Origin: Bacteroides sp.
GTDB lineage: Bacteria; Bacteroidota; Bacteroidia; Bacteroidales; Bacteroidaceae
Direction of reading: 5' to 3'
Length of the DNA stretch: 62,096 bases
NCBI GenBank assembly: GCA_017471925.1
Contig: JAFURM010000034.1
Location: forward strand, 1 to 62,096
Of this stretch, positions 15,226 through 55,426 are shown piece by piece; the first letter of the stretch is position 1, and each line of letters starts with the position of its first letter. Both the position numbers and the translations under genes were made by a program. The notes below the pieces were generated by a model. The model worked only from the letters and a program-made list of their open reading frames with translations. It was not told where the DNA came from and ran no database searches.

Positions 15226-15254
15226 TGCAGCAGACATCTGTCTATGCAAAAAAA

Positions 15255-15310
15255 GCACGGATAACACGGATTTTCAGGTGTGTACCCGTTTGTCCGTGCA
15301 ATCCGTGCCT
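15255..15310. repeat. dispersed iteron palindrome, copy B
   Basis: Left arm GCACGGATAACACGGA (15255-15270); right arm TCCGTGCAATCCGTGCCT (15293-15310). An extra CCGT (15286-15289) precedes the right arm as in the other copies. It lies 20 nt from the rubrerythrin stop codon. Same family as 21173, 42675, 47278 and 55353. Confidence 0.8.
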
Positions 15311-15330
15311 GATGTAATTTCTATAACGGC

Positions 15331-21172: not shown

Positions 21173-21249
21173 TTAGGCACGGATGGCACGGAACATACAA
21201 TTTTATATATACACATAAAACCGTAAAAATCCGTGCCATCCGTGCCTAA
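21173..21249. repeat. dispersed iteron palindrome, copy C (perfect 20-bp arms)
   Basis: TTAGGCACGGATGGCACGGA (21173-21192) is exactly repeated in inverse at 21230-21249. Both arms carry GG/CC where the other copies carry TA. It lies 25 nt from the stop codon of the oxidoreductase gamma gene. Confidence 0.9.
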
Positions 21250-42331: not shown

Positions 42332-42674
42332 GTGATTTTTGTGAGAAGGTACAGTACTTTGCCATAGAAACTTACTGTCTGACTTGTCTGCAGTTTGTTG
42401 TCGATGGCTATGAGCGTATGACTAATCGTTAGGAAATGTATATTGCTTTCTTGCTTCTTTACATTGTAAAAATGGGCAATTGGCGTTATAGACCTTTTCG
42501 GTAGGGAAAAATACCTTTTCTGACTGAGTAAATTTTCGGCCCCAATTGGGAAAAAATTTCTCCCCAGTTGGATACTCTTTTGGGGAGGCTTGTTTACTTT
42601 TATTAAGTATTTCGCAAAATCTTTACATAGTGTTCTTGGTCTTGCACTTGCTGAGTACCGTTTGATGAAAAGAG
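42332..42674. other. 343-bp intergenic stretch without a recognised gene
   Basis: Between the obgE promoter and repeat copy D. I find no ORF with support on either strand and no strong terminator. The segment 42536-42580 carries a loosely repeated CCCCAATTGGG / CCCCAGTTGG motif of unknown meaning. A small RNA cannot be excluded. Confidence 0.5.
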
Positions 42675-42738
42675 AGGCACGGATTACACGGGCAGAACGG
42701 CTGTAATCTAACCGTGCTTATCCGTGTAATCCGTGCCT
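42675..42738. repeat. dispersed iteron palindrome, copy D
   Basis: Left arm AGGCACGGATTACACGGG (42675-42692); right arm TCCGTGTAATCCGTGCCT (42721-42738). The arms match at 17 of 18 positions. ACCGTG (42711-42716) gives a third iteron before the right arm. It lies 54 nt from the stop codon of the C1 peptidase. Confidence 0.85.
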
Positions 42739-42792
42739 GAATTTAGATGAACGTGCATGGTAACACGTTCCTATTGCCGGAATGGGTGTTGC

Positions 42793-46426: not shown

Positions 46427-47281
46427 ATGAATGTTTTGATTACCGGAGCCAACGGTCAACTTGGCAATGAGATGCGGACACTCTCAGCCGAAAATCCGCA
46501 GCACACCTATTTCTTTACCGACGTGCAGGAACTCGATATTTGCGACGAGGAGGCTGTGCGTACCTTTGTGGTCGACAACCGGATTGCGTGCATCGTGAAC
46601 TGTGCGGCCTATACAGCCGTGGACAAGGCCGAAGACAATGAGGAACTGTGTGACCTGCTCAACCATATCGCTCCCGGCTATCTGGCCAAGGCGGCCGAGG
46701 CGGTAGGTGCATCGCTCATACAGGTCTCTACCGACTATGTGTTCGACGGAACTGCCCATACCCCTTACACTGAGCAGGTTGCTCCTTGTCCTAACTCCGT
46801 CTATGGCCGCACCAAACTGGCCGGTGAGGAGGCTGTACTGCAACATTGCTCACGCGCCATGGTCATTCGCACGGCATGGCTCTATTCCATCTATGGCAAC
46901 AACTTCGTGAAGACGATGATTCGCCTGGGACGGGAGCGCGAAACGCTCGGCGTGGTGTTCGACCAAATCGGTACCCCGACCTATGCCAACGACCTGGCCC
47001 GTGCCATTTATGCAGCCATCAACCAAGGCGTAGTGCCCGGCATCTATCACTTCAGCAACGAGGGGGTCTGCTCCTGGTATGACTTCACCAAGAGCATCCA
47101 TCGCTTAGCCGGTATCACCACCTGCAAGGTCTCTCCCCTGCACACCGATGAATATCCCGCCAAGGCTCCCCGTCCCGCCTACTCCGTGCTCGACAAGACC
47201 AAAATCAAGAAAACCTTCAATATCAACATCCCCCACTGGGAAGAAAGTCTGCAGAAATGCATTGGCATGTTGGATTTTTAG
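46427..47281 (+). CDS. rfbD: dTDP-4-dehydrorhamnose reductase
   Basis: RfbD (RmlD) reduces dTDP-4-dehydrorhamnose to dTDP-rhamnose, the last step of the pathway begun by rfbA and rfbB at 11-13 kb. The 284-residue SDR protein has MNVLITGANGQLGNEM for NAD(P) binding, STDYVFDG and the Y-x3-K motif YGRTKLAGE. Length is standard. Its stop codon (TAG, 47279-47281) is formed by the left arm of the iteron element at 47278, so that insertion set the end of the gene. Confidence 0.95.
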   Translation: MNVLITGANGQLGNEMRTLSAENPQHTYFFTDVQELDICDEEAVRTFVVDNRIACIVNCAAYTAVDKAEDNEELCDLLNHIAPGYLAKAAEAVGASLIQVSTDYVFDGTAHTPYTEQVAPCPNSVYGRTKLAGEEAVLQHCSRAMVIRTAWLYSIYGNNFVKTMIRLGRERETLGVVFDQIGTPTYANDLARAIYAAINQGVVPGIYHFSNEGVCSWYDFTKSIHRLAGITTCKVSPLHTDEYPAKAPRPAYSVLDKTKIKKTFNINIPHWEESLQKCIGMLDF

Positions 47282-47717
47282 GCACGTATGACACGGATTA
47301 ACACTGGAGAATAAAGACTATGCTGCATGAGGAACTGACAGAAAAGATAATCAGTGCGTTCTATGAGGTTCATAAAACGCTGGGATTTGGCTTTTTGGAA
47401 CAGGTATATCAGAATGCATTGTATATGGAACTGGTAGGGAGAGGACTGAAATGTGAATGTCAGAAAGAACTGAAAGTATATTATAAAAATAAAATAGTCG
47501 GCACATATAGAGCGGATATGGTAGTGGAAGATACGGTCATTTTAGAATTAAAAGCTGTATCTACATTAAAAATGGAGCATGAATGGCAATTGATAAATTA
47601 CCTGAAAGCTACGGATTTGCAAGTCGGATTGCTGCTGAACTTTGGCCTTAAAGCCGAGATGAGGCGCAAAATCTTTACATACTGAAATCCGTATTAATCC
47701 GTGTAATCCGTGCCTAA
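47278..47717 (+). mobile_element. 440-bp iteron-flanked element carrying a GxxExxY gene
   Basis: Left arm TTAGGCACGTATGACACGGA (47278-47297) continues as TTAACACTGG. Right arm (47686-47717) reads, in reverse, TTAGGCACGGATTACACGGA and then TTAATACGGATT. The two arms match at about 25 of 30 positions. The only gene inside (47320-47685) ends directly against the right arm. The same arms bound the four short palindromes at 15255, 21173, 42675 and 55353. I infer an autonomous mobile or copying element, not a known IS: no transposase is present. Confidence 0.55.
47320..47685 (+). CDS. GxxExxY-family PD-(D/E)XK-like protein
   Basis: A 121-residue member of the GxxExxY family (TIGR04256 / PDDEXK_3), named for the motif seen here as GFLEQVY in residues ~24-30. 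FRAD-like [18 protein letters not shown] (residues ~67-84) supplies the Asp and Glu-x-Lys of a PD-(D/E)XK nuclease core. The tail LLLNFG..AEMRRK is also typical. No biochemical role is established for the family to my knowledge. It is the sole gene between two iteron arms and its base composition is lower in GC than rfbD and prfC on either side. A role in copying the repeats is my hypothesis. Confidence 0.85.
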
Positions 47718-47731
47718 AAACATTAATTGGT

Positions 47732-49297
47732 ATGAATGAAATAGAAAGAAGAAGAACCTTTGCGATTATCGCCCATCCGGATGCCGGTAAGACATCGCTG
47801 ACGGAGAAACTGTTGCTCTTTGGCGGACAGATTCAGGTGGCCGGAGCGGTGAAGAACAACAAAATCAAGAAGACGGCCACCAGCGACTGGATGGACATTG
47901 AGAAACAGCGTGGTATCTCTGTGACCACATCGGTGATGGAGTTTGACTACCATGACTATAAAATCAATATCCTTGACACCCCCGGTCACCAGGACTTTGC
48001 CGAAGATACCTACCGCACGCTGACCGCCGTAGACTCGGTTATCATCGTGGTGGACGGTGCAAAGGGTGTGGAGACGCAGACACGCAAGCTGATGGAAGTG
48101 TGTCGCATGCGGAACACCCCCGTCATTATCTTCGTCAACAAGATGGACCGCGAGGCCAAGGACCCCTTCGACCTGCTGGACGAGCTGGAGGAGGAACTCT
48201 CCATCCATGTGCGTCCCCTGACGTGGCCCATTGAGAGCGGTGTGCGTTTCAAGGGCGTCTATAACCTCTATGAACACAACCTCAACCTCTTCCAACCCTC
48301 CAAGCAGGTGGTGACGGAGAAGGTGGCTGTGGACATCCATACCGAGGAACTGGACAAGCATATCGGTGCCGACCTGGCCGACCGCTTGCGTGGCGAGTTG
48401 GAACTGTTAGAGGGGGTCTATCCCGAATTTGAAGTGAGCGAGTACCTGAAAGGTGAGCTGGCTCCGGTGTTCTTTGGTTCAGCACTGAACAACTTCGGTG
48501 TGGAAGAATTGCTGAACACTTTCGTGGAGATAGCTCCCAGCCCCCGTCTCGTGAAGGCTGAGGAGCGCGATGTGCAGCCCGAGGAAGCCAAGTTCACCGG
48601 ATTCATCTTCAAAATCACGGCCAACATTGACCCGAACCACCGCTCCTGCGTGGCTTTCTGCAAGATATGCTCCGGAAAGTTTGTGCGCAATGCGCCCTAC
48701 TACCACGTGCGTCACGGCAAGACGCTCCGTTTCTCCAGTCCCACGCAGTTCATGGCCCAGCGCAAGACCACCGTGGATGAGGCTTGGGCGGGAGACATCA
48801 TCGGCCTGCCCGACAACGGAACCTTCAAGATTGGCGACACGCTGACCGAAGGCGAACTGCTCCACTTCCGTGGCCTGCCCAGCTTCTCGCCCGAAATGTT
48901 CAAGTATATCGAGAATGCCGACCCCATGAAGCAGAAACAGCTGGCCAAGGGCATTGACCAGCTGATGGACGAGGGCGTGGCCCAGCTCTTCGTCAACCAG
49001 TTCAATGGTCGCAAGATTGTCGGTACCGTAGGCCAGCTTCAGTTCGAAGTCATCCAGTATCGTTTGGAGAATGAGTACAATGCCAAGTGCCGTTGGGAGC
49101 CCATCAGCCTCTACAAGGCTTGCTGGATAGAGAGCGACGACCCTGCCGAACTGGAGGCTTTCAAGAAGCGCAAGTATCAGTACATGGCCAAGGATCGCGA
49201 AGGACGTGATGTCTTCCTGGCCGACAGCGGTTACGTGCTCCAGATGGCGCAGATGGACTTCAAGCACATCAGGTTCCACTTCACCAGCGAGTTCTGA
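47732..49297 (+). CDS. prfC: peptide chain release factor 3
   Basis: RF3 is a translational GTPase that recycles RF1/RF2 after termination. The 521-residue product has the P-loop [13 protein letters not shown] near residues 14-26, the switch II motif [14 protein letters not shown] and NKMDRE. It then has the RF3-specific C-terminal domain ([23 protein letters not shown]). Length matches the family. The start codon is 14 nt after the right arm of the iteron element, so the insertion lies in its leader region. Confidence 0.96.
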
Positions 49298-55352: not shown

Positions 55353-55426
55353 TTAGGCACGGATTACACGGATCTTCACGGATTTATATCACTATAAACC
55401 GTTTTATCCGTGTAGTCCGTGCCTAA
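55353..55426. repeat. dispersed iteron palindrome, copy F
   Basis: Left arm TTAGGCACGGATTACACGGA (55353-55372) with a third iteron CACGGATTT (55377-55385); right arm TCCGTGTAGTCCGTGCCTAA (55407-55426). The arms match at 19 of 20 positions. It lies 28 nt after the fucP stop codon. Confidence 0.9.

Follow-up and report, generated by a model that had tools for sequence, protein, structure and literature searches.

What does a small gene of the GxxExxY family, a common protein family lacking an established role, do between two inverted arms whose copies also bound gene-less palindromes elsewhere in the same DNA? The question is raised by a locus between rfbD and prfC in a Bacteroides sp. contig, whose whole analysed stretch of 62,096 nucleotides is here called the window (features in Table 1). 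From the letters of the window alone it had been proposed that the gene and its arms form an autonomous element, and that the short palindromes are its internally deleted relatives, in the way REP elements relate to RAYT genes.

Table 1. Features of the window around the GxxExxY unit and the gene-less palindromes that share its arms.
Feature	Coordinates	Strand	Remarks
Gene-less short palindrome, arms as in unit	15252..15311	.	inverted pair of 22-nt outer arm; hairpin
Gene-less short palindrome, arms as in unit	21174..21248	.	inverted pair of 22-nt outer arm; hairpin
Gene-less short palindrome, arms as in unit	42674..42739	.	inverted pair of 22-nt outer arm; hairpin
rfbD, upstream neighbour	46427..47281	+	name from the original prediction, putative
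Unit left arm	47275..47304	+	units CACGTAT/CACGGAT; contains rfbD stop codon
GxxExxY gene, 121 aa, PD-(D/E)XK nuclease family	47320..47685	+	E27, D66, E76, K78, Q90, Y94
Unit right arm	47691..47720	-	two full units; third, degenerate unit from 47686
prfC, downstream neighbour	47732..49297	+	name from the original prediction, putative
Gene-less short palindrome, arms as in unit	55354..55425	.	inverted pair of 22-nt outer arm; hairpin

The architecture that had been described for this locus is borne out. The two arms, of 30 nt each, are 90% complementary, lie 386 nt apart and head the list of inverted repeats found in the window when spacings up to 600 nt are allowed. The left arm does supply the rfbD stop codon, a TAG at 47279-47281 that falls within it, and on the other side the 121 codons and TGA of the gene are abutted at 47686 by the degenerate third arm unit, which is where the right arm had been said to begin, the 30-nt arm proper following it. 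The G+C content of the gene and its arms is about 36-38%, against about 55% on both sides. A known RNA family was set aside as an explanation, with zero Rfam matches in the window at the gathering threshold, and so was a phage origin, the phage collection containing no match at E 1e-5. A scan of 46900-48000 for consensus terminators returned none at the arms, which is a weak negative, given that the scan permits loops of 3-8 only and the short palindromes fall outside it.

The identification of the gene as GxxExxY was correct, its product being a clear member of the family by both NCBIfam TIGR04256 (E 5e-42, 142.9 bits against a curated cut-off of 35) and Pfam PF13366, PDDEXK_3 (E 5e-42). Its other library matches are Cas4 in Pfam and two more in NCBIfam, all below cut-off, together with a weak Cas4 match in PADLOC; a defence gene was set aside, as the Cas4 matches are weak (E 0.003 or worse). 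In a set of 115 proteins of the family, from which eight rows with stops or of short length were left out, five residues show no variation (E27, Y30, D66, K78 and Y94) and three hardly any (E76 and Q90, 98% each, and G24, 99%). D66, E76 and K78 (100, 98 and 100% of the 115) fit, at the level of sequence, the conserved D...(E)xK core of a PD-(D/E)XK nuclease. The residue layout is that of such a nuclease with a Q90xxxY94 pattern, which we take to be the QxxxY motif, and makes the protein a predicted nuclease. A solved structural relative was not found by sequence search, which gave one partial match at E 0.04, and the gene inside the arms matched no transposase family of Pfam or NCBIfam. Fifteen pairs were tried for dN/dS, eight of which gave no ratio because of unequal length or saturated or zero dS; six of the remaining seven lie at 0.025-0.10, two of these six having a dS above 2 and several dS values being near saturation, and the seventh gives 0.51 at a dS of 0.014. 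As judged from these ratios, the gene is under purifying selection. A published link of GxxExxY or PF13366 to flanking arms or dispersed repeats was not found, a weak negative in a literature scope without most subscription journals.

The claim that the outer arm of the unit also bounds four short palindromes of the window held equally: all four are found by the 22-nt outer arm with up to six mismatches, and they fold as hairpins (z -4.3 to -12.2), each stabler than all of its 200 shuffles. When the arm was searched genome-wide, as had been proposed, the assembly holding the window (G000, 2.87 Mb, 89% complete) gave 163 matches with up to three mismatches, against 2 for the reversed pattern, so that the abundance of arms is not due to chance, and a single GxxExxY gene was detected in it. 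An operator serving autoregulation only was set aside, given the presence of arms at many gene-less sites. Among the matches listed in this genome there are 31 exact arms, 30 with a locus, and 28 of these 30 have a facing partner (up to five mismatches, within 440 nt). Twenty-eight distinct facing pairs were read, the gene unit being one, and they measure at most 212 nt, except the gene unit, a 465-nt pair and a 1.4-kb pair. The 465-nt pair (L122, 1593-2056), with no long open frame by eye, encloses a nested inverted repeat, GCTCCGCCTGAAAGGGG...; judged by eye, the 1.4-kb pair surrounds an open reading frame similar to an efflux adaptor, and its two arms may belong to separate half elements. 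A transposase with these ends was not seen among the loci read, which cover part of the genome.

About ten of the facing pairs read have a common loop and common flanks, and were thus copied as a unit of about 140 nt. Palindromes sharing the loop and, beyond the arms, outer ends like GTGTCAAA/TTTGACAC occur at L002, L010, L015-L017, L020, L028 and L029; these outer ends either are the actual termini of a mobile unit or belong to a host element bearing the palindrome. An outer end resembling GTGTCAAA is present on 9 of the 28 pairs, and part of the copying may therefore stem from something else. No trace of the gene was recognised in the loops of the remaining palindromes read in this genome, the best loop-to-gene score, 24, falling within the 19-28 obtained for shuffled loops against each other. 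An empty-site search in ten relatives covered two of the four window palindromes, those at 42674 and 55354; in both cases the two sides matched different contigs, among the matches listed, and a clean empty site of a short palindrome did not emerge.

The rfbD-prfC spacer is readable in 123 of 138 genomes, and in 83 of them it is no longer than 63 nt and contains neither a gene nor an inverted repeat. The intact unit is found in the window's genome, in G116 and G138, and at the MAG loci L062-L064. In G018 a decayed form persists, reduced to the right arm and a piece from the middle of the gene. In G024, which is near G116 on the tree, the left arm in the spacer passes straight into the final codons of the gene, the stop codon and the right arm, making up a short palindrome; this remnant reaches a local score of 44, the maximum in 300 shuffles being 25. 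It follows that internal deletion of a unit with its gene gave rise, on site, to at least one short palindrome. Another minimal arm pair, in G082, may be a deletion product or a separate insertion, and G136 may retain a right-arm scar. Thus, the view of the short palindromes as internally deleted relatives stands for G024, and may stand for G082, and finds no counterpart in the other loops of the window's genome, free of gene pieces as they are. The comparison of empty sites at rfbD-prfC, also proposed with the original prediction, yields the 83 short spacers and a series of loss and shrinking (G018, G024, perhaps G136); no event of insertion, whether of the unit or of a short palindrome, was observed. 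The spacer of G025 contains a four-helix-bundle gene with its own arms, as does, by eye, that of G109, and several more genomes carry other palindromes there. In G115 (L268) a GTTAACTGTCGTAGTTAAC-like repeat occurs several times between rfbD and prfC.

Within the genus, a GxxExxY match is present in 61 of 149 genomes (in 60 above the curated cut-off), with 1-4 matches per positive genome among those listed; in a phylum-wide sample the figure is 152 of 296, and outside the genus the family can be multi-copy, with at least 12 matches in one genome of the phylum. Local alignment of upstream against downstream flanks revealed inverted arms scoring at least 30 at 76 of 90 genus loci (91 were given, L121 being dropped for lack of a tblastn match), the maximum in 238 neighbouring ORFs being 29. 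The other 14 of the 90 loci have no arms above control. Far from GxxExxY genes in other Bacteroides being never flanked by arms, 71 of the 85 loci that are left after subtracting five contigs fetched twice are armed above control. The phylum search added 30 loci and plasmid records eight (34 of these 38 belonging to Bacteroidota), and 21 of the 38 exceed the maximum of 31 found in 39 control ORFs.

The letters of the arms vary widely (CACGGATTA, CACAGAGGA, CACAGATTA, AACATAAG and others), and most arms have a common grammar, a 7-mer C[AG]C[AG][AG]A[GT] present in about three copies at a spacing of 9-10 bp. At least two such units, pointing inward in both flanks, are found at 54 of the 85 genus loci and 24 of the 38 others (78/123), and at 0/123 loci in reversed orientation and 0/227 control ORFs. 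In a non-redundant set of 51 proteins with less than 70% mutual identity, 25 have them, and shuffled flanks gave 0 in 200 rounds; arms of the AACATAAG type lie outside the 7-mer grammar and are scored as misses. Outside Bacteroidota none of four loci (Fusobacteriota, Spirochaetota, Gemmatimonadota and Pseudomonadota) has two or more such units in both flanks. In a Sphingomonas plasmid (L226) fabD and fabG flank a GxxExxY gene that lacks Bacteroidota-type arms, and in Gemmatirosa (L222) such a gene is surrounded by a long inverted repeat of ACTGAAGAAGG-like iterations, unlike the Bacteroidota unit.

The type of arm follows the clade of the protein. On a tree of the 115 proteins, built from few columns and with many forks open, the arm label changes 20 times, against 55.8 for shuffled labels, and none of 200 shuffles is as low, a result that near-copies help. 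The arm type of the window fills one 14-row clade (support 94) over three genomic contexts, contexts being defined by single linkage, and the AACATAAG type fills one 9-row clade over two. Within a single context, X0, 16 of the 26 rows bear the label CAGAG and eight the label CAGAT; these eight sit in one 11-row clade (support 98) with one CAGAG, one CGGAG and one unlabelled row. X0 is probably the order radA - GxxExxY - FAD-dependent protein, on the basis of a named plasmid record with that order whose protein is identical to one X0 row. As judged from the tree and the arm labels, the arms co-diversify with the GxxExxY protein.

A corresponding match is seen between the resident gene and the dispersed arms. 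In the 149 genomes, after subtraction of the gene's own arms, per-genome arm counts among the matches listed agree with the arm type of the gene (Mann-Whitney p 1.6e-7, 3.3e-10 and 4.2e-5), two off-diagonal values being weak (0.014 and 0.029). Among 31 single-type genomes, the most numerous of three arm families is that of the gene itself in 25, or in 24 without G142, whose tie (46 and 46) was counted as a match, and another family in six. At a finer level, inside the arm family to which the window belongs, the dispersed GCG:CAC ratio is 0.81-2.83 in the six genomes whose gene arms lean to GCGCGG, and 0.01-0.21 in the seven whose gene arms lean to CACGG (exact one-sided p 0.0006, uncorrected for kinship); this comparison comprises 13 of 14 family-A genomes, among the matches listed, with groups made by eye, including G002, G033, G001 and G085, which have one mixed arm each, and without G071 (6 vs 4), whose gene arms fit neither subtype. 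With a prfC tree that includes 138 of the 149 genomes, independent pairs change the same way rather than opposed in 2.8 vs 2.0 cases for family A (p 1), 6.9 vs 0 for B (median p 0.016) and 1.5 vs 1.0 for C (p 1). Contrasts on raw branch lengths give no signal, and with a branch floor of 0.02 they give r 0.25 (p 0.03) for A, r 0.36 (p 0.002) for B and r 0.21 (p 0.14) for C. Given this weakening under pairs and contrasts, the count match is partly shared history, with the best support for family B, weaker support for A and none for C. Arms at many loci in genomes without the gene, named with the original prediction as evidence against it, do occur in part: 9 of the 89 genomes without a detected GxxExxY gene hold at least 20 arms of one family. 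In E. coli, REPINs are reported to persist in a similar way where their gene is missing (PMC8049555).

A parallel arrangement exists in the same genus around four-helix-bundle genes (TIGR02436), which have a match in 33 of 60 genus genomes searched and none in the window's genome. Their loci (L130-L159, and L161 in G025) are framed by inverted arms, exceeding the control maximum in 25 of 29 scored, and these arms consist of iterated AT-rich units such as GAGTTAT or AATTGAC. The gene models in this comparison follow a simple ORF rule, by which L138 has no ORF and L136, L137 and L140 maybe a wrong one. Two GxxExxY-type units in both flanks are present at 0/29 of the four-helix genes, and two of ten four-helix-type words in both flanks at 0/90 of the GxxExxY loci. 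Such separate arm types argue against one shared mobiliser and for each protein recognising its own arms. At two loci, L123 (841-1052) and L125 (583-758), window-type palindromes are nested in four-helix-type palindromes; the flank letters on the two sides of the nested palindrome are identical at 25/25 positions in L123 and 10/14 in L125, as if the elements insert into hairpin centres.

Among known systems, REPIN/RAYT is described, in PMC2817692, PMC8049555 and PMC3116915, as a gene between two inverted repeat copies, with many dispersed gene-less hairpin pairs, vertical inheritance and repeats that persist without the gene. The GxxExxY unit is alike in being a gene between inverted copies of a dispersed repeat, in its many scattered pairs without a gene, and in the survival of arms in some genomes that lack the gene. 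It differs in that its protein belongs to the PD-(D/E)XK family, whereas a RAYT is an HUH tyrosine transposase, and in that its arms are stacked direct units of 9-10 bp and not a GT(A/G)G-tagged palindrome. Identity with a RAYT was rejected, since the HUH domain (Transposase_17) is absent and Pfam gives PDDEXK_3. Thus, the proposed analogy with RAYT and REP stands as regards the arms shared by the unit and the gene-less palindromes, which are general in the genus, and fails as regards the protein. As to copy number, one gene was detected in the window's genome, as against the 1-4 in the genus and the higher number elsewhere in the phylum given above. The short palindromic gene-less elements, with an internal-deletion origin at the single site rfbD-prfC, also resemble MITEs, and differ from them in that no transposase with such ends accompanies them in the loci read and the gene inside the arms fits no transposase family. 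Similar in plan are the intervening sequences (IVS) of 23S rRNA (PMC4990558), sporadic, low-G+C elements with long inverted repeats on either side of one small ORF and a length of 428 nt. Their location is 23S rRNA and their product a four-helix-bundle protein, whereas the present unit has protein genes on both sides and a product of a nuclease family; with no TIGR02436 match in the genome either, an identity with such elements was discarded.

Taking these comparisons into account, we consider it slightly better than an even bet that the unit and the palindromes form a two-part repeat system of the REPIN/RAYT kind, the driver of which, GxxExxY, belongs to an unrelated fold family. That gene and arms vary in concert across related gut bacteria points to a system for spreading repeats, driven by a protein type not known for that role, in which the nuclease would mobilise the repeats. 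In such a system, the full unit would be the small PD-(D/E)XK gene framed by inverted arms, and the gene-less palindromes with the same arms would be partial units. Copies of the protein would sit next to one another along the arm, each on one unit, a unit corresponding roughly to a turn of the DNA, and would cut at or near the hairpin or cruciform that the two arms can form; repair or copying of the cut product would then create or maintain palindromes elsewhere. As in RAYT systems, the gene would stay put and be inherited vertically, while the short elements could multiply and outlive it. Autonomy of the element, as originally stated, is not supported: most GxxExxY genes of the genus occupy few syntenic loci, which is RAYT-like rather than transposon-like.

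It is unlikely, in our opinion, that the palindromes are moved by a third party, either an IS transposase or replication slippage or template switching at palindromes, with GxxExxY as cargo or as an arm-binding regulator. The arm-rich genomes without the gene, the GTGTCAAA-like further end on about a third of the pairs read, as if they were riding in another element, and the ordinary look of the rfbD-prfC deletion are what such a process would leave; nevertheless, cargo has no need of arms that, in one and the same genomic context, differ according to the clade of its protein, the two small-gene families of the genus have no arm types in common, and in the loci read, which cover part of the genome, no transposase was seen and, bar the three longer pairs, no facing pair above 212 nt. 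Purifying selection, the few syntenic contexts, the weak Cas4 similarity and the Q90xxxY94 pattern would also suit a resident domesticated nuclease for which the palindromes are landmarks in repair, at replication forks or in self/non-self marking, with no spreading today. This we regard as quite improbable, in view of the patchy presence of the gene in the genus, its decay at rfbD-prfC and the packing of gene and arms as a unit in several contexts.

The anatomy of the unit also recalls the Coxiella IVS, for which PMC4990558 gives an ORF between 28-bp inverted repeats and low G+C, and it could be asked whether the arms form a processed RNA hairpin, with a protein that acts on RNA. The membership of the protein in the PD-(D/E)XK family and not in S23p, the position of the unit between protein genes, and the direct 9-10-bp iterations of the arms, which a simple RNA stem does not need, make such an RNA-level element very doubtful. 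That chance or common descent alone left an old repeat flanking one gene is scarcely credible: the count match does vanish in part under phylogenetic control, but inward units frame well over half of the GxxExxY loci and none of the control genes, in several contexts and with several arm types. Returning to the preferred two-part system, it may be formulated more broadly, as a tentative proposal to which we give somewhat less than an even chance. GxxExxY proteins would be non-transposase PD-(D/E)XK palindrome drivers that read CRCRRAK iterons and spread their arms as co-evolving cognate pairs; together with the four-helix-bundle (S23/IVS-type) genes they would represent two independent REPIN-like inventions, the 23S rRNA intervening sequences being a special insertion of the second.

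For the family, this arrangement would provide the first biological context, and for bacterial families of intergenic palindromes a second, non-homologous solution. The correspondence of arm type and protein clade supplies cognate pairs that are directly testable, and the intervening sequences of 23S rRNA may join a wider class of gene-in-palindrome elements.
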